DNA from: Draconibacterium orientale
GTDB taxonomy: Bacteria; Bacteroidota; Bacteroidia; Bacteroidales; UBA12170
Reading direction: 5' to 3'
Assembly: GCA_020718205.1 (NCBI GenBank)
Contig: DYSN01000010.1
Location: 1-55,375 of the forward strand
DNA length: 55,375 nt
In this document: positions 48,559-55,375 of the stretch, in pieces
Layout: each line of letters begins with the position of its first letter
Position numbering within the stretch: the first letter of the stretch is position 1
Translations under genes and position numbers: made by a program
The notes under the pieces: generated by a model
Told to the model about the DNA's origin: nothing
Databases searched by the model: none
The model's input: the letters and a program-made list of their open reading frames with translations, nothing else

Positions 48559-48936
48559 TCAGGGTAAAAAATCTTTTATAATTCTATGAAATTCTTCCAC
48601 TTCAGAAATCAATGGTTTTACATCCTGCTCATCAAAGTCAACAAATGCAGAATAATCACTTTCCTGGCGCTAATCGATTAGCTGAGCATACAATTTACCA
48701 TACTTTTTCTCAATTATATTCGATTTTATGTATTTCAGAAAAAACTGTGTTTTTAAGCCATCATGTGATTTCGAAATAATCCCATCTTTATACAATAATG
48801 CATCAACTATATGAAAACAGGAGTAATATAAACGATTTACACAGGATCTCCATCTGTTATTTTGCGCTAGAATCAAGGCATCTTCATATAATTCCTTCGA
48901 TCGATCTATACGATATTTAATGTGTTCAATATCCAT
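48559..48936 (-). pseudogene. HEPN-domain protein of an MNT/HEPN pair, broken by an in-frame TAG
   Basis: The frame from 48936 encodes 88 residues, then TAG (48670-48672), then 36 more codons in the same frame (RQESDYSAFVDFDEQDV through DFLP) before TGA at 48559-48561. At the break related proteins usually have Trp, so TGG to TAG is likely. The HEPN RNase motif RX6H (R35-LYYSCF-H42) lies before the stop and is intact, but the C-terminal helices are lost. Its ATG shares a base with the MNT stop (TGATG). In this family HEPN is the toxin and MNT the antitoxin. A truncated product may still be made. Confidence 0.8.
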
Positions 48937-49259
48937 CAGGCTAAATATATTCCTTCTTTCTTAATATTTAAGTATAAAGGAGTGGATGAAAACCTGCTCT
49001 CCCAATCCTTCTGATTAAAAATGATAGATGAAATAGGTTCTTCAATTTCCAATTCTATTTCAAATAACTCATCACGATAAATTTTTTCAATTTCCCTTGT
49101 CGTCTTTGGGGCGCTGATTAAAATTAGCAAATCCCAATCAGAATTTTCTGTTGCATTGCCGGTAGCATGTGAACCAAATAATACAATTTGAGCAGAAGGA
49201 TCCTTCCTCTTGATTCTATCTTCAATTAGTGTCAGTATTTCTTTCTCTCTTGGTGTCAT
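48936..49259 (-). CDS. MNT-type minimal nucleotidyltransferase antitoxin
   Basis: The protein has 107 residues when started at ATG 49259 (MTPREKEIL); a longer frame to 49394 has poor N-terminal sequence. The minimal nucleotidyltransferase motif is intact: LFGSHATG (G29, S30) with SDWDLLI (D41, D43). MNT proteins of this kind neutralise HEPN RNases, in known cases by AMPylating them. The downstream HEPN gene overlaps by one base and carries a nonsense codon. A TATTTTTG box lies only 4 nt before the ATG, so the transcript may be leaderless or nearly so. Confidence 0.82.
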   Translation of the reverse strand: MTPREKEILTLIEDRIKRKDPSAQIVLFGSHATGNATENSDWDLLILISAPKTTREIEKIYRDELFEIELEIEEPISSIIFNQKDWESRFSSTPLYLNIKKEGIYLA

Positions 49260-49459
49260 AGAGCAAAAATACATATTATTCCGGCAAAAAAACCAACAAA
49301 GTGTTAAGCAATGCATATCGCAGGAAAAAAGCCAAAAAGGCCAAAATATAAACGATTTTACATCTGAATTCACCCAACCTTCCCAACATGGCAATGGAAA
49401 AATGTTAAAAAACTAATCATTTCAACCACGATAATGAAATCATTTTAATTGTTAACCTA

Positions 49460-49526
49460 CAGACGAATTTCCCTCCATTTCAATCTTCCGGTTGTTGTTT
49501 TTTACATCATTGGACAATTGAAAGAA
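49460..49526. repeat. Direct repeat copy 1 (67 bp)
   Basis: The segment from ACAGACGAATTT to ACAATTGAAAGAA recurs at 49707-49774 with a few substitutions and one indel. A further weaker match (ttccaatcaggctga) follows copy 1 and precedes copy 2. The 603-bp stretch 49260-49862 holds these repeats, a promoter candidate and no convincing gene. Confidence 0.75.
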
Positions 49527-49706: not shown

Positions 49707-49774
49707 ACAGACGAATTTTCCCCCATTTCAATCTTCCAATTGTTGTTTTTTACATCATTGGACAATTGAAAGAA
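49707..49774. repeat. Direct repeat copy 2 (68 bp)
   Basis: This is the second copy of the repeat at 49460-49526. Its last bases supply the ATTG that forms the -33 part of the promoter candidate for the glycosyltransferase gene. Copy 1 has no TANNTTTG box at the equivalent place. Confidence 0.75.
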
Positions 49775-49862: not shown

Positions 49863-51830
49863 ATGAAGTTATCGGTAATTATTGTCAACTACAATGTAAA
49901 ACACTTTTTAGAACAGTGCCTGAACTCTGTTAGAAAAGCGGCCCAACATGTGGATGCTGAAATTTGGGTGGTTGATAATAACTCCGTGGATCAAAGCGTG
50001 GAGATGGTGCGGGATAAATTTCCCGAGGTGAAAGTGATTGCCAATAAAGACAACAGGGGCTTCTCAGTGGCTAATAATCAGGCCATTAAACTAAGCAATA
50101 GCGAATACATTCTCCTGCTCAATCCCGATACCGTGGTCGAAGAGTTTACCTTTGCCAAAGTGGTGGAATTTATGGATCAAAACAGCGATGCCGGTGGTTT
50201 GGGCGTAAAAATGGTCGATGGAAACGGGGTATTCTTACCTGAATCAAAGCGTGGATTGCCCACACCCGCTGTGGCATTTTATAAGATTTTTGGTCTCTCG
50301 GCCATTTTCCCGAAATCAAGAACTTTTGGCAAATATCATCTTGGCTTTCTCAACGAAAACGAAATTCATTATGTCGACGTGCTCAGTGGTGCTTTCATGC
50401 TAATGCGCAAATCGGTGCTCGACAAGGTAGGCCTTCTCGACGAAACATTCTTTATGTATGGCGAAGATATCGACCTGTCGTACAGGATAATAAAAGGTGG
50501 ATTTAAGAACTATTATTTCCCACAAACCCGCATCATTCATTACAAAGGCGAAAGCACCAAGAAAAGCAGCGTAAACTATGTGTTTGTCTTTTATCAGGCC
50601 ATGATTATTTTTGCCCGCAAGCATTTTAGCCTGCGATATGCCCGGTTGTTCTCGCTGCTCATTCATTTGGCTATCTATCTCAGAGCTTCACTTTCTGTTA
50701 TTCGCCGCTTGTCGAGCCGTGTTTTTCTTCCGGTTATTGATGCCGCCATTCTTTATATTGGATTCTATTTCATAAAATCTTACTGGGAACAGACCTGGCT
50801 ACTTCCGCACAGCAGCGCCTATCCACTGCTCTATATGCTCTATATTGTCCCCATTTATATTCTCATATTGCTCGGCGGCGTTTTGCTCACAGGAGGCTAC
50901 GATAAACCCTATCAGATTCCGCGCTTAGTGAAAGGCCTGTTTTCCGGAATCATTGCCATATTGGTAATGTATGCGTTGCTGCCTGAGAACTACCGCTATA
51001 GCCGCGCCATTATTATTGCCGGAACTTTTTGGGGATTTATAAGCTTGTCGGGAATCAGATTTGTTTTTCAGATGATGGGTTTTTCGGCCTTTGGCAATCA
51101 TGAAGAGAAGAAAAACAGAATAGCCATAGTTGGCGAAAGCTCTGAAAGTCAACGAGTAGCAGCTTTACTGCGAAACATGAGCCGCAAGCCATCGTTCATT
51201 GGTTTGGTGAGCCTTAAAGAGTCGGATAAAAAAGTTGAAGGCGAAATTGGTACTGTGGATCAATTGCAGGAAATTATAAGAGTTTATGGTCTGGGCGAAG
51301 TGGTATTTTGCGCCAGAGATATGAGTGCTCAACATATTATTGACCAAATGATTCAGCTTCAAAATCAGGGGATTGATTATAAAATTGCCCCCGAAGAGAG
51401 CATGGCCATCATTGGTAGTAAGAGCATCAGCGCCGGAAACGATTTGTTTATGATTGATGTGGACAGCATTACCAAACCCCAAAACAAGCGAAATAAAAGA
51501 ATCACCGATTTGCTGCTGGCCTTTAGTCTTTTTATTACCCTTCCTTTAAATGTCTGGTTTGTGGATAAAAAATCCGGCTATCTCTGGAATCTGATTCAGG
51601 TACTCGTCTCCCAAAAAACTTTTGTAGCCTATTATTTCAGCAAACAACACTCGCAACAGGCTCTCCCCCATTTAAAAGCAGGAATATTGCATCCCGGACA
51701 TGCCTTTGCCTCCGAAACCTTAAACGACGACACTCTGTCACGACTCAATTTGCTCTATTCGCGCGATTATAAGATTGCCAACGATTTGGAAATCATTTGG
51801 AAGGGATTTAAGTTTCTGGGGAATAGATAG
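49863..51830 (+). CDS. GT2 glycosyltransferase fused to a membrane/Rossmann (CoA_binding_3-like) module
   Basis: This 655-residue protein has a GT2 domain at about 1-250 (LSVIIVNYNV; D38 in VVDNN; NPD at 87-89 in LLLNPDTV; MYGEDIDLSYRI), related to rhamnosyltransferases. About five membrane helices (245-415) are followed by a Rossmann-like domain (RIAIVGESSESQRVA). The C-terminus resembles the end of polyprenyl-phosphate sugar-1-phosphate transferases, but the catalytic segment is missing: after NKRITDLLLAFSLF there is no recognisable YKFRSM or RPG motif. It probably acts in surface polysaccharide synthesis. Its last 52 codons (51675-51830) recur twice downstream, so the 3' end is a recombination or insertion site. 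Confidence 0.82.
   Translation: MKLSVIIVNYNVKHFLEQCLNSVRKAAQHVDAEIWVVDNNSVDQSVEMVRDKFPEVKVIANKDNRGFSVANNQAIKLSNSEYILLLNPDTVVEEFTFAKVVEFMDQNSDAGGLGVKMVDGNGVFLPESKRGLPTPAVAFYKIFGLSAIFPKSRTFGKYHLGFLNENEIHYVDVLSGAFMLMRKSVLDKVGLLDETFFMYGEDIDLSYRIIKGGFKNYYFPQTRIIHYKGESTKKSSVNYVFVFYQAMIIFARKHFSLRYARLFSLLIHLAIYLRASLSVIRRLSSRVFLPVIDAAILYIGFYFIKSYWEQTWLLPHSSAYPLLYMLYIVPIYILILLGGVLLTGGYDKPYQIPRLVKGLFSGIIAILVMYALLPENYRYSRAIIIAGTFWGFISLSGIRFVFQMMGFSAFGNHEEKKNRIAIVGESSESQRVAALLRNMSRKPSFIGLVSLKESDKKVEGEIGTVDQLQEIIRVYGLGEVVFCARDMSAQHIIDQMIQLQNQGIDYKIAPEESMAIIGSKSISAGNDLFMIDVDSITKPQNKRNKRITDLLLAFSLFITLPLNVWFVDKKSGYLWNLIQVLVSQKTFVAYYFSKQHSQQALPHLKAGILHPGHAFASETLNDDTLSRLNLLYSRDYKIANDLEIIWKGFKFLGNR
51675..51830 (+). 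repeat. Glycosyltransferase tail, native copy (T0, 156 bp)
   Basis: These last 52 codons of the glycosyltransferase are repeated at 53609-53764 (T1) and 54424-54579 (T2) with identical length. T0 and T1 stay similar for about 20 bp past the stop codon. T0 and T2 are nearly identical over the final 80 bp. Confidence 0.85.
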
Positions 51831-52057
51831 TGGTTTATCATTTGGTTTTTGTACTCTCATAAAAATGGATGCTAATAGGGTGTTAAAAATCAGCAGGAAT
51901 CAATTGTTGATCAGCCAGATTAGTTAAAGCCTTAAAAACATTCATTGAATTTTGAAACTAAAGCCACTCGTTAGTTTTACGCACAATAAGATTGTTAATC
52001 AAAATTGCATCATTTAATGTGCAATATTATCATTAAACCTAATTAAAAACATTTATT

Positions 52058-52089
52058 TTTCGTCTATAAAAGAATAATTACTAATTTTG
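52058..52089 (+). promoter_or_regulatory. Candidate promoter of the AAA ATPase gene
   Basis: TTTC (52058-52061), 20 nt, then TAATTTTG (52082-52089). The ATG at 52106 would follow the start site by about 10 nt. Confidence 0.5.
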
Positions 52090-52105
52090 TGTAAATTTTT
52101 CAGTT

Positions 52106-53413
52106 ATGGAAGAATATTTTAACTCATTGGCAAAATACAACTTTTGGAACGGCAACGTGCCACAACAAGGGTTTTTGCGGACCGATTATCTCAATTCAAT
52201 CCGGAGTTATTGTGATAATAAATTAGTTAAAGTAATTGTAGGTCAAAGGCGTACCGGTAAAAGTTATATTTTACGTCAGATGGCTAACGACCTAATTACT
52301 AATGGTGTGCATCCAAATAACATTTTTTATTTAAACAAAGAATATCTCGATTTTGATTTTGTTAACCATTATACTGATTTAGAGCGATTGATAAAACACT
52401 ATCAATTGACTTTAAAACCTCAAGGGAAAATTTATTTGTTTTTGGACGAAATTCAAAATATTGCACAATGGGAACGGCTTGTAAACTCCTATTCCCAAGA
52501 TTTTACCCAAAGTTACGAAGTGTTTATCAGCGGTTCAAATTCTAAAATGCTTTCGGGCGAATTAGCTACTTTACTCTCGGGCAGGTATATCAATTTTGAA
52601 ATATTTCCATTCAGTTTCAAAGAATATATCGGCATTACAAAACAAGATAACAACAAAGAATCGTTTATCAATTATATGCAAAGCGGTGGTTTACCAGAAC
52701 TTTTTGTATTGCCAAACGAGGAAACCAAAAGACATTATATTGCATCAGTAAAGGATACAGTTTTACTTCGGGATGTTATCCAGCGACACGCCATAAAAGA
52801 TCCCAGATTATTGGAAGAAATTTTTATTTATTTGGTTAATAATGCAGCTAATTTACTGTCTATCAATAACGTTACAAACTATTTGAAAAGCAAAGGTCGA
52901 AAAACAACTTATGATACCATAGCGAATTATATTGGTTACATCGAAGATACTTTTTTACTGCACAAAGCAGAGCGTTTTGACATTAAAGGAAAAGATACCA
53001 TAGCTGGAAATGTAAAATATTATTGCAATGATTTGGCATACAAAAATTATTTGTACGCTGGTTTTGGATACGGAATAGGATATCAATTAGAAAACTTGAT
53101 TTATTTGGACCTGCGCCGATTGGGTTATGAAGTGTATGTTGGTATAATACCCAATAAAGAAGTTGACTTTGTAGCAACAAAAGCAGACCAAAAGCTGTAT
53201 ATTCAGTGTGTATATTTGTTACTTGACGAAGCCACCATAAAAAGAGAATATGCTTCTTTGGAAGCCATTAATGATAATTATCCGAAAATTGTGGTGTCTT
53301 TAGACGACATCATAATGCCTATCAACAAAGGAATTATCCATTTACAAGCTTGGAAATTACACGATTTTTTAACCACAACATATCAGCACTTAAGTTTGAT
53401 GACGGTCAGATGA
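52106..53413 (+). CDS. AAA_14/DUF4143 ATPase with repeat-derived C-terminus
   Basis: This 435-residue protein has Walker A GQRRTGKS (46-53), Walker B IYLFLDEIQN (D114, E115) and ISGSNSKML in an AAA_14 domain, then a DUF4143 region (about 200-360) containing YIGYIEDTFLLHKAERFDI and the nuclease-like KEVDFVATK. Such ATPases are common in accessory DNA and of unknown function. The coding sequence crosses into the 385-bp repeat at 53380, so the last ten residues (YQHLSLMTVR) and the stop come from the DUF2442 repeat read in another frame. The original C-terminus may therefore be lost. It is flanked by glycosyltransferase tail copies T0 and T1. Confidence 0.82.
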   Translation: MEEYFNSLAKYNFWNGNVPQQGFLRTDYLNSIRSYCDNKLVKVIVGQRRTGKSYILRQMANDLITNGVHPNNIFYLNKEYLDFDFVNHYTDLERLIKHYQLTLKPQGKIYLFLDEIQNIAQWERLVNSYSQDFTQSYEVFISGSNSKMLSGELATLLSGRYINFEIFPFSFKEYIGITKQDNNKESFINYMQSGGLPELFVLPNEETKRHYIASVKDTVLLRDVIQRHAIKDPRLLEEIFIYLVNNAANLLSINNVTNYLKSKGRKTTYDTIANYIGYIEDTFLLHKAERFDIKGKDTIAGNVKYYCNDLAYKNYLYAGFGYGIGYQLENLIYLDLRRLGYEVYVGIIPNKEVDFVATKADQKLYIQCVYLLLDEATIKREYASLEAINDNYPKIVVSLDDIIMPINKGIIHLQAWKLHDFLTTTYQHLSLMTVR

Positions 53414-53610
53414 TTATTTATATCAATGAAAAAGTATTATCTTTTCAATTATCTGAGATTTCTGATAGGCTATCATGCGCTTCAACCAAAGAATTATTAG
53501 ACTTTAAGATATCACCATCGGGATATGGAATCCATTGGAAGCAACTTGATGAAGATATTTCAATAAACGGTCTGATTGAACTCCATGAGAGAAAAAATTC
53601 TATAACCTAA
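53380..53610 (+). pseudogene. 5'-truncated DUF2442 gene copy
   Basis: This is the same reading frame as the intact DUF2442 gene at 54171-54425, from NISALKFDD to the end, but the first seven codons, including both ATGs, are replaced by the end of the ATPase gene. An in-frame TTG at 53350 could start an 86-residue product overlapping the ATPase, but there is no partner DUF4160 gene. It is probably a remnant. Confidence 0.75.
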
Positions 53611-53764
53611 GGCATGAATTTTACATCCCGGACATGCCTTTGCCAAAGAAAACTTAAGCGACGACACCCTGTCACGACTCAATTTGCTCTCTTCGCACGA
53701 CCAAAAAATTGTCAATGATTTGGAAATCATCTGGAAGGGATTTAAGTATCGGGGGAATGGATAG
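53609..53764 (+). pseudogene. Glycosyltransferase tail copy T1
   Basis: It aligns codon for codon with the last 52 codons of the glycosyltransferase. One Gly codon (GGA) is TGA here (53615-53617). The rest is open, with amino-acid variants (FAKENLSDDTL against FASETLNDDTL). It starts at the DUF2442 stop codon. It has no start codon of its own, so it is a gene fragment. Confidence 0.8.
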
Positions 53765-53880
53765 TGTTTTGTCATTTGATTTACTTTCAGTTAACAATCC
53801 AAATAAGAAGATTTTGATTTAAAAATTTTGATAATTTAAGACCGTTTTTTCTTGCTAAATTGTTAAAAATCCTGATTGAG

Positions 53881-53911
53881 TTTTATTAGATTCGTAGATA
53901 AGATATATTTG
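53881..53911 (+). promoter_or_regulatory. Candidate promoter of the DUF4160-DUF2442 pair
   Basis: TTTT (53881-53884), 19 nt, then TATATTTG (53904-53911), with the DUF4160 ATG at 53923. Confidence 0.42.
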
Positions 53912-53922
53912 AATAAAAAAGC

Positions 53923-54174
53923 ATGCCAACAGTTTTATTTTTATTAGGATGGAGGTTATATTTTTGGTCCAACGAGAACCATGAGCCTATTCATATTCAT
54001 GCAGAGAAAGGCGAAATGGAAGGTAAATTTTGGATTGATGTTGAAAATTTTGAAATCACTATAGCTGTAGAGTACAATCTAACACCACAAGCAAAAAGAG
54101 AGATTAAAAAAATTATATACGAGCATTTTGATCTAATTGTTTCTGAATGGAACAGACATTTTAACAAATCATGA
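53923..54174 (+). CDS. DUF4160 family protein
   Basis: This 83-residue protein matches DUF4160, with the characteristic RLYFWSNENHEPIHIHAEKG (a His-rich HEPIHIH motif near residues 21-27) and a C-terminal helix with LIVSEWNRHF. DUF4160 and DUF2442 genes commonly sit together and are suspected toxin-antitoxin-like modules; the biochemical role is not established. The stop overlaps the DUF2442 start by 4 bp (54171-54174, ATGA), so the two are translationally coupled. The cassette is bounded on both sides by glycosyltransferase tail copies. Confidence 0.82.
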   Translation: MPTVLFLLGWRLYFWSNENHEPIHIHAEKGEMEGKFWIDVENFEITIAVEYNLTPQAKREIKKIIYEHFDLIVSEWNRHFNKS

Positions 54175-54425
54175 TTATGGAAAAATTATATAATATATCA
54201 GCACTTAAGTTTGATGACGGTCAGATGATTATTTATATCAACGAAAAAGTATTATCTTTTCAATTATCTGAGATTTCTGATAGGCTATCATGCGCTTCAA
54301 CCAAAGAATTATTAGACTTTAAGATATCACCATCGGGATATGGAATCCATTGGAAGCAACTTGATGAAGATATTTCAATAAACGGTCTGATTGAACTCCA
54401 TGAGAGAAAAAATTCTATAACCTAA
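54171..54425 (+). CDS. DUF2442 family protein, intact copy
   Basis: This 84-residue protein (or 82 if started at the second ATG, 54177) has the DUF2442 core: ALKFDDGQMIIYI, then FKISPSGYGIHWKQLDEDI and NGLIEL. Family members accompany DUF4160 proteins and are predicted DNA-binding or antitoxin partners. Its stop codon coincides with the first bases of the glycosyltransferase tail copy T2. A 5'-truncated duplicate lies 815 bp upstream with almost no divergence, which indicates a recent duplication. Confidence 0.82.
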   Translation: MIMEKLYNISALKFDDGQMIIYINEKVLSFQLSEISDRLSCASTKELLDFKISPSGYGIHWKQLDEDISINGLIELHERKNSIT

Positions 54426-54579
54426 GGCATGAATTTTACATCCCGGACATGCCTTTGCCAAAGAAAACTTAAGCGACGACACCCTGTCACGACTCAATTT
54501 GCTCTATTCGCGCGATTATAAGATTGCCAACGATTTGGAAATCATCTGGAAGGGATTTAAGTTTCTGGGGAATAGATAG
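54195..54579 (+). repeat. 385-bp direct repeat, copy 2
   Basis: Partner of 53380-53764. It contains most of the intact DUF2442 gene and tail T2. The last 80 bp match the native glycosyltransferase end rather than copy 1, so this copy is a mosaic. Confidence 0.9.
54424..54579 (+). pseudogene. Glycosyltransferase tail copy T2 (mosaic)
   Basis: This 52-codon copy of the glycosyltransferase end has no start. The first half matches T1, including the TGA in place of Gly. From about 54500 it is nearly identical to the native end (ending KGFKFLGNR then TAG), with one silent-type difference (atcatctgg for atcatttgg). The sequence after the stop is unrelated to that after T0 and T1. Confidence 0.8.
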
Positions 54580-54829: not shown

Positions 54830-55375
54830 ATGATGAAAAAAACATTTCTTTCTACACTGGGACTGCTGCTTGGTCTAACCATATTTGCTCAAATCCCCAA
54901 TGGATATTACGATGATGCCGAAGGCTTATCTGGAGCACAGCTGAAAACAGCTCTTTACGGAATCATCAACGACCATGATGCTCAATCATATAGTTCTATT
55001 TGGACACATTTTCATACTACAGATGATAAACCCAATGGTAAGGTATGGGATATGTATAGCGATATTCCCGGTGGCACACCCCCTTACGAATATAATTTCG
55101 GCACAAACCAATGTGGAAGTTACAGCGAAGAAGGCGATTGTTATAACCGCGAACACAGTTTCCCCAAAAGCTGGTTTAATGATGCTTCACCCATGGTGAC
55201 CGATATTTTTCACATTGTTCCCACCGATGGTTATGTGAATAGTCAGCGCAGCAATTACCCTTTTGGCGAAGTGAACAACCCAAGCTGGACAAGTTTAAAC
55301 GGATCTAAAAAGGGAAATAACTCAACATCGGGTTATTCGGGTACCGTTTTTGAGCCCCGCGATGAGTATAAAGGT
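54830..55375 (+). CDS. Secreted endonuclease I family nuclease, partial at right edge
   Basis: 182 codons are present and the frame is open at the window end. A Sec signal (about 1-21, GLLLGLTIFAQ) is followed by the endonuclease I domain: GYYDDAEGLSGAQLKTALY, then YNREHSFPKSWF (the conserved Arg-Glu-His metal-finger motif of Vvn/EndA-type nucleases) and DIFHIVPTDGYVNSQRSNYPFG. Family members are extracellular DNases/RNases; Bacteroidota homologues often carry a T9SS domain at the C-terminus, which lies outside this window. I used the first of two adjacent ATGs; the second is equally possible. Confidence 0.88.
   Translation, partial: MMKKTFLSTLGLLLGLTIFAQIPNGYYDDAEGLSGAQLKTALYGIINDHDAQSYSSIWTHFHTTDDKPNGKVWDMYSDIPGGTPPYEYNFGTNQCGSYSEEGDCYNREHSFPKSWFNDASPMVTDIFHIVPTDGYVNSQRSNYPFGEVNNPSWTSLNGSKKGNNSTSGYSGTVFEPRDEYKG

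Follow-up and report, generated by a model that had tools for sequence, protein, structure and literature searches.

In a 55,375-nucleotide stretch of DNA from Draconibacterium orientale (positions 1 to 55,375 of contig DYSN01000010.1, assembly GCA_020718205.1; called here the window), the last 52 codons of an intact family 2 glycosyltransferase (GT) gene occur three times in direct orientation on the forward strand, once as the end of the gene itself and twice more downstream, and each interval between successive copies holds a small cassette: a candidate defence ATPase of the PDC-S01 type with a start-less DUF2442 gene in the first, and a putative DhiTA-like toxin-antitoxin pair (DUF4160-DUF2442) in the second. 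The last of the three copies is a mosaic of the other two. We also found that cassettes between direct repeats are a recurrent arrangement and not a one-off, that the repeats differ from locus to locus, and that at one other locus a recurring host gene tail carries allelic (synonymous) differences only. In our judgement it is slightly better than an even bet that the cassettes were added behind the GT gene by homology-anchored insertion and were then stacked by recombination between the tails.

The three copies, called tails A (51675-51830, the GT's own end including the stop codon), B (53609-53764) and C (54424-54579), are each 156 bp long and align without indels, so that self-comparison bears out the recurrence at equal length described in the original prediction, an earlier note on this DNA. 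Tails A and C are 92.9% identical over 156 bp, and A and B 85.6% over 174 bp, the latter match reaching 18 bp beyond the stop codon (51831-51848, similar to the 18 bp 3' of tail B). The top self-match in the whole window is longer than the tail, pairing 53377-53764 with 54192-54579 at 96.6% over 388 bp (99% over the first 300 bp); the repeated block at B and C, which begins at 53377 and 54192, therefore takes in nearly all of DUF2442 (99%), a point that the original prediction did not contain, and neither did it contain the mosaic structure of C. Because their E-values are at most 7e-52, the tail repeats are not due to chance, and in the own-genome search the tail matched at exactly three places. 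The gene order is GT with tail A (49863-51830, 655 aa, Pfam PF00535), AAA_14-DUF4143 ATPase (52106-53413), start-less DUF2442 (53377-53608), tail B, DUF4160 (53923-54174) with its DUF2442 partner (54171-54425), tail C and an endonuclease I gene, all on the forward strand, and the repeats between the cassettes are GT coding sequence.

Up to the equivalent of 51734 there are 10 variable sites, and tail C has the base of B at every one of them; of the 12 variable sites between 51757 and 51825, it has the base of A at 11, and the remaining one (51797) is a change private to A. The switch from B-like to A-like falls inside 22 identical bases, and therefore homologous recombination acted between the tails, which agrees with the recombination proposed as one possibility in the earlier note. 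That note also held that the copies largely keep the frame, which needs qualifying by an in-frame TGA at the third codon of both B and C, and that they differ by coding-type substitutions, a signal that is at most weak: the 22 differences between A and B fall 4/8/10 on codon positions 1/2/3 and amount to 8 synonymous and 11 nonsynonymous codons. Tail B has a C-like 5' part, while its 3' half is, as judged from the relatives, a decayed, dead copy, because residues near-invariant among them are replaced, namely two tyrosines, one present in 99 of 99 sequences of relatives (96 distinct places, with 3 duplicates of the same place) and the other in 98 of these 99. As to the 5' part, the change seems to have occurred in A, the working gene, since B and C carry there the lysine and serine found in the three nearest relatives and A has serine and asparagine. 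The stacking appears recent relative to the 14% divergence of A and B, given the near-identical 3' halves of A and C together with the near-identical blocks of DUF2442 and 5' tail shared by B and C.

The arrangement is not confined to the window. Contig C287 of this genome carries two such cases, an AAA_14-DUF4143 gene flanked by 108-bp repeats (89%) and a nucleotidyltransferase gene flanked, together with its HEPN-like neighbour (by eye), by 83-bp repeats (97.6%); on contig C117, a small DUF3368-looking gene (by eye) lies between 46-bp repeats. These own-genome examples prompted a bracketing test in which the 1.5 kb left of a gene was compared with the 1.5 kb right of it in direct orientation, and the order-level sets, with 1.2-kb flanks, were drawn afterwards. 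For the own and same-genus set, a local profile gave 46 AAA_14-DUF4143 genes in the fetched stretches (part of the 62 DUF4143 matches listed in the genus search), 44 of them testable and 2 too near a contig end, with some sharing one contig (L247, L254, L131, L274). Twelve of the 44, the window gene among them, were bracketed, versus 2 of 200 testable control genes of 300-500 aa lying more than 3 kb away, another 43 being too near an end (Fisher p 2e-8); the two control hits were L242, beside an apparent toxin-antitoxin pair, and L144, a likely contaminant. In other genera of the order, where the best-scoring loci were taken (30 per family, 29 for DUF2442), 10 of the 27 testable AAA_14-DUF4143 genes were bracketed versus 0 of 28 aminotransferase controls (p 2.9e-4), and a rerun with a looser gene finder gave 10/28 and 0/30; with this gene finder, DUF2442 was bracketed at 12 of 29 loci and the nucleotidyltransferase family at 6 of 27. 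Inverted matches were rare for AAA_14-DUF4143, with 1/44 and 1/27 in the two sets against 12 and 10 direct ones, and numbered 3/29 for DUF2442 (12 direct) and 2/27 for the nucleotidyltransferases (6 direct), and when flanks from different loci were paired at random a match appeared in 1 of 213. Small cassettes between direct repeats are thus a recurrent arrangement, and at some loci the repeats are gene 3' ends, which supports part of the original prediction.

These counts retain weak or doubtful rows, namely L247 (two), L134, L254 and L249 in the genus set and L280, L287, L299, L300 and L302 in the order set, and leaving out the doubtful rows L360, L361 and L362 for DUF2442 and L384 and L394 for the nucleotidyltransferases brings these two families to 9/29 and 4/27; L405, L407 and L274 are possible paralogues. 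At L287 (G059:C168), a perfect 239-bp repeat accompanies two equal-score matches to the same ATPase family 1.9 kb apart, which would be a fresh tandem duplication or an assembly effect. At L249 (G004:C96, 1106-7168), the AAA_14-DUF4143 gene is surrounded by at least 4 copies of a repeat that reaches 212 bp. The control hit L144 (G000:C70) has cytochrome-like and ferredoxin-like genes (by eye) with hairpin repeats, looks foreign and fits the 6.23% contamination of the source genome. Among repeats seen in 73 stretches (0.81 Mb) of this genome, L158 and L159 (N gaps), L164 (apparent tRNA genes), L171 (inside one large gene) and L144 (apparent contamination) were set aside by hand.

Across all bracketed sets the repeats are 31-326 bp long with about 77-100% identity, and they differ by locus: one 14-base match was found among 16 bracketed pairs compared, and among 28 loci two pairs of loci share 24-28 bases. 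Because so little is shared between loci, the repeats are not the ends of one element. This bears on the idea that the loci are remnants of integrative elements whose tyrosine recombinase inserted into gene 3' ends, supplied replacement tails and allowed att-to-att accretion before the integrase was lost. Synonymous replacement of gene tails and tail-cassette-tail arrays are what such a process would be expected to leave, but the loci compared have no common core, the repeats include promoter and terminator-like stretches, and no integrase or transposase was found among the ten window proteins scanned with Pfam, and none is named among the families listed for the neighbours (25 of 63 in Pfam; 25 of 29 in PHROG, 17 of these 25 being nameless), a check that covered 57 of 120 proteins of at least 110 aa from 18 of 20 loci. 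We consider this origin improbable.

What the repeats consist of can be read at several loci. In G154, the tail of a methylmalonyl-CoA mutase gene recurs twice, around DUF433-DUF5615, DUF2442 and ParE-type genes. The gene and its far tail specify an identical run of 27 residues followed by a stop, although 12 codons differ between them, all synonymously (0 nonsynonymous; P 2.6e-7 for neutral change); the near tail has 7 synonymous and 4 nonsynonymous differences. The far tail probably comes from another functional allele and is not an on-the-spot copy of the target, because purely synonymous differences point to earlier selection within a working gene. The original prediction of a replacement tail from a related allele, whose mark would be synonymous-only differences, therefore gains support at the mutase, and less so in the window, where B is decayed. 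Other host gene tails recur too: in G179 that of a class-III aminotransferase behind a DUF2442-DUF4160 pair (46 bp, with 1 synonymous and 3 nonsynonymous differences), in G125 a near-end stretch of a Schlafen-type helicase after a nucleotidyltransferase gene and its neighbour (10 and 6), in G048 the tail of a DUF3006-like gene (by eye) around small cassettes (1 and 0), and in G039 that of a UDP-sugar dehydrogenase (13 and 18), where a paralogue is possible. In G008, the repeat (75 bp, 98.7%) consists of the promoter region of a pyruvate:ferredoxin oxidoreductase-looking gene (by eye), and stretches of G000 and G004 have a single recognisably homologous copy of it before the same gene. Stacks of the form repeat-cassette-repeat-cassette-repeat exist at L412 and L413.

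Three further loci are of note. At L257 (G004:C177, 868-957 and 2499-2589), an internal piece of a DUF456-like gene (by eye) recurs beyond the AAA_14-DUF4143 gene. L400 (G047:C12, 2893-8534) is an array of small genes (a DUF2442 pair, with HicB-like and AAA_14-like genes by eye) with many copies of one repeat between them, and in both copies the start of this repeat translates to EAAIKIENLSKQ followed by a stop, with synonymous differences only (by eye). At L404 (G112:C44, 3452-8501), several apparent nucleotidyltransferase pairs and a DUF4160-DUF2442 pair stand in a row (by eye), accompanied by copies of a shared repeat of 146-188 bp.

A serious if rather unlikely alternative is true long target duplication, in which the insertion itself copies its target (a staggered break with fill-in), the copies drift, and later gene conversion makes the mosaics. 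It agrees with the decay of the 3' half of tail B, with repeat identities of about 77-100%, which fit different ages, with the single copy in relatives of the G008 promoter repeat, and with the predominance of nonsynonymous changes in some tails (synonymous:nonsynonymous 13:18, 1:3 and 3:7), and it has been reported for restriction-modification genes, where the duplicated stretches measure on the order of 100 bp. Against it stand the 12 synonymous and 0 nonsynonymous codons at the mutase, unlike the drift of a dead copy, and the two cassettes between three repeat copies at L412 and L413, which would need repeated hits on one spot. The intergenic repeats, and the tails rich in nonsynonymous changes, fit homology-anchored insertion and target duplication alike, and it is because of the synonymous mutase tail and of mosaic C that we favour homology-anchored insertion.

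The homology-anchored insertion that we favour would proceed as follows. Incoming, imported DNA would bear the cassette beside a variant form of the host gene tail, and recombination within that tail, carried out by the cell itself, would join this DNA to the chromosome, so that the host gene retains a working 3' end and a second tail closes the insert. Later recombination between tails would stack both cassettes and yield the mosaic C, and the tails would then act as sites for further recombination. The incoming molecule could have been a circle, entering by single crossover, or a linear piece of DNA joined through homology at one end and illegitimately at the other.

Several observations weigh against this explanation. 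A simple single crossover predicts an allele switch in tail A, which shows none; since a single crossover thus fails to account for all three tails, either entry of a linear molecule of the kind just described or a later conversion must be added. Between A and C there are 5 synonymous and 4 nonsynonymous codons, a synonymous excess that is not significant (P 0.053), and the gene tails other than the far mutase copy are mixed (7:4, 10:6, 13:18, 1:3 and 3:7 synonymous to nonsynonymous). At the majority of bracketed loci the repeats are something other than gene tails, and no repeat was detectable at over half of the cassettes tested. The hits reach 50 bits at 9 of 12 loci in the genus set and 9 of 10 in the order set, so some loci are weak, and they include palindromes, interspersed-looking repeats, WD-type repeats and one tandem duplication; the repeat family at L249 adjoins an IS630-type transposase-looking gene (by eye). 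Finally, among 104 GT loci of relatives (96 distinct places), none has the same insert behind the GT and none is an orthologous same-species junction; since no relative has this insert at the GT, there is no empty-site comparison for the window.

These GT relatives, where they have names, are mostly Bacteroidales or Bacteroidetes, and full-length ones in G002, G008 and G009 are 72-74% identical. The tail was sought in them as the original prediction had proposed, and a second tail was found behind none of the 104 genes in the 0.1-8 kb of sequence available there, so that the GT gene does not look like a conserved hotspot, going by these sequences. At three relatives' loci, weak tail matches (24-41 residues or 31-32 bases) were judged to be chance. 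In 85 stretches (1.28 Mb) around the relatives' GT genes there are 10 local repeat pairs, excluding pairs with both copies inside long open reading frames, in 6 stretches, 3 of which lie beside REP-associated or IS200-type transposase-looking genes (by eye). The lack of a second tail in relatives also counts against a history in which the entire gene, or a segment larger than it, was duplicated in tandem, most of the extra copies were deleted later and cassettes landed in the leftover. Such a history would yield synonymous tails and mosaics, and relics of neighbouring genes are present at some loci (L257); yet the repeats elsewhere are promoter, terminator-like or intergenic stretches and not gene relics, and control genes seldom lie between repeats (2/200). 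We find this course of events hard to credit.

The window evidence consists of the contig sequence of one assembly of one strain. The window is contig 73 of the 393 that make up this 4.12-Mb genome, and the contamination is 6.23%. With so many contigs and this contamination, and with 300-bp repeats at 99% identity that are hard for short reads, metagenome strain variants might have been strung together into an artefact, but numerous other assemblies, some of them consisting of few contigs, show the same arrangement, and it depends on gene type, unlike artefacts. An assembly origin is very improbable.

As regards the cargo, the window ATPase matches the PADLOC model PDC-S01 with an E-value of 2e-140 (residues 21-418 on model positions 9-405 of 412), a comparison that covers this one among the ATPases studied. 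Its DUF4143 part is presumably a PD-(D/E)XK domain. An E-x-D-F motif in 45 aligned ATPases is only suggestive, and solved structures gave no match to the ATPase. According to a 2026 survey, PDC-S01 is a candidate defence gene ranked fourth most common across prokaryotes, and most PDCs still await validation (PMC12988326). By this match, the window ATPase is a candidate PDC-S01 phage defence gene.

The ATPase reading frame extends into the DUF2442 repeat with its last residues. The first DUF2442 copy, antitoxin-like (PF10387, E 2e-13), had been called truncated, and its start codon region is indeed missing, but only the first residues are gone, both copies keeping Pfam positions 2-68 of 72. The predicted toxin gene (DUF4160, PF13711, E 2e-16) overlaps the downstream, antitoxin-like DUF2442 gene (PF10387), with the same domain pair and overlap as dhiTA. 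We call it DhiT-like and not DhiT because its score with the NCBIfam toxin_DhiT model (E 8e-8, 32.8 bits) lies below the curated cut-off of 100. In Dickeya, dhiTA combines the domains DUF4160 and DUF2442 (PMC8198452), and a plasmid pair of the same domains in Thermus was hypothesised by its authors to be a toxin-antitoxin system (PMC12724237); on these domain matches, the window pair is a putative DhiTA-like toxin-antitoxin pair. The search detected no DUF2442 in the genus beyond this genome (10 others searched), and in a sample of 198 genomes from the order 63 have it; for this reason it was probably imported, and its absence from the rest of the genus fits a recent arrival.

Other features of the window lie around the locus. 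Downstream of tail C, the next host gene is that of endonuclease I (54830-55375), assigned by its open reading frame and Pfam and incomplete at the contig end (55375). Directly 5' of the GT there is a 68-bp direct repeat (94%; 49459-49526 and 49707-49774), whose right copy overlaps a stretch similar to the G002 region upstream of the GT, and a nucleotidyltransferase-HEPN pair (48670-49394) adjoins this repeat; the two together may be a second insertion footprint, on the 5' side of the GT. Between tail A and the ATPase, 52 bp (51881-51932) match the extreme end of contig C180 of the same genome at 86.5%, which may be a second copy of the ATPase flank at an assembly break.

These results bear on how toxin-antitoxin pairs and single-gene defence systems move without a transposase. 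The footprint was found at 27-41% of the tested AAA_14-DUF4143 and DUF2442 loci, doubtful rows included, and it is testable, because it predicts donors, empty sites and stacked arrays in strain collections; it may also serve as a marker for recent defence cassettes, and it extends a pattern of restriction-modification genes to other common cargo. Tentatively, and with more doubt than confidence, we suggest that in this order small toxin-antitoxin and single-gene defence units move as integrase-free cassettes for which a copy of a neighbouring gene's end, carried along, is the attachment site, homologous recombination swapping the tail while the host gene stays working and the cassettes stack, as a recombination-driven counterpart of the integron and a main road of their spread.

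Among known systems, the integrative element e14 replaces the 3' end of icd, the gene keeping a working tail and the old tail being displaced. The likeness lies in a working tail supplied from the insert; unlike e14, no integrase was named among the proteins scanned, no common core was present in the repeats compared, and the inserts are about 0.7-2 kb. Integron arrays likewise consist of small cassettes separated by repeats, whereas the window repeats are pieces of the neighbouring host gene and the ten window proteins include no integrase. For the cargo families themselves, the text available to us of the papers on DhiTA (PMC8198452) and PDC-S01 (PMC12988326) describes no flanking repeats, and the terms "direct repeat" and "flanking repeats" do not occur in that of the latter; nor did the open-licence literature searched yield a paper linking PDC-S01 or DhiTA to flanking repeats.

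In Arabidopsis, transposed genes are reported to have flanking direct repeats of host, mostly genic, sequence, including chimeric ones, and insertion of a circle by recombination has been proposed (Woodhouse et al. 2010, PMC2869330). We share with that work, as far as the portion available to us goes, the direct repeats of host sequence around moved genes and the chimeric repeats; it concerns a eukaryote and movement within one genome, and ours bacteria, defence-type cargo and probably imported DNA. Closest is insertion with long target duplication, described for restriction-modification genes first in Helicobacter pylori (Nobusato et al. 2000, Gene 259:99; via PMC1643837, PMC3874152 and PMC2869330), with duplications of the order of 100 bp according to one review citing that study. 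In these accounts, as here, a small addiction or defence unit lies between long, variable direct repeats of the target, tens to hundreds of bp in size, whose length and sequence vary by insertion, and the statement in the original prediction that no described system of this form was known is therefore not supported. Their cargo is restriction-modification genes, and ours is AAA_14-DUF4143 ATPases together with toxin-antitoxin pairs, in an order of the Bacteroidales type. In summary, the footprint was already known for restriction-modification genes, and what we add to those accounts is other cargo, some tails with allelic (synonymous) differences, a mosaic tail, cassette stacks, and an association quantified in samples from one bacterial order.

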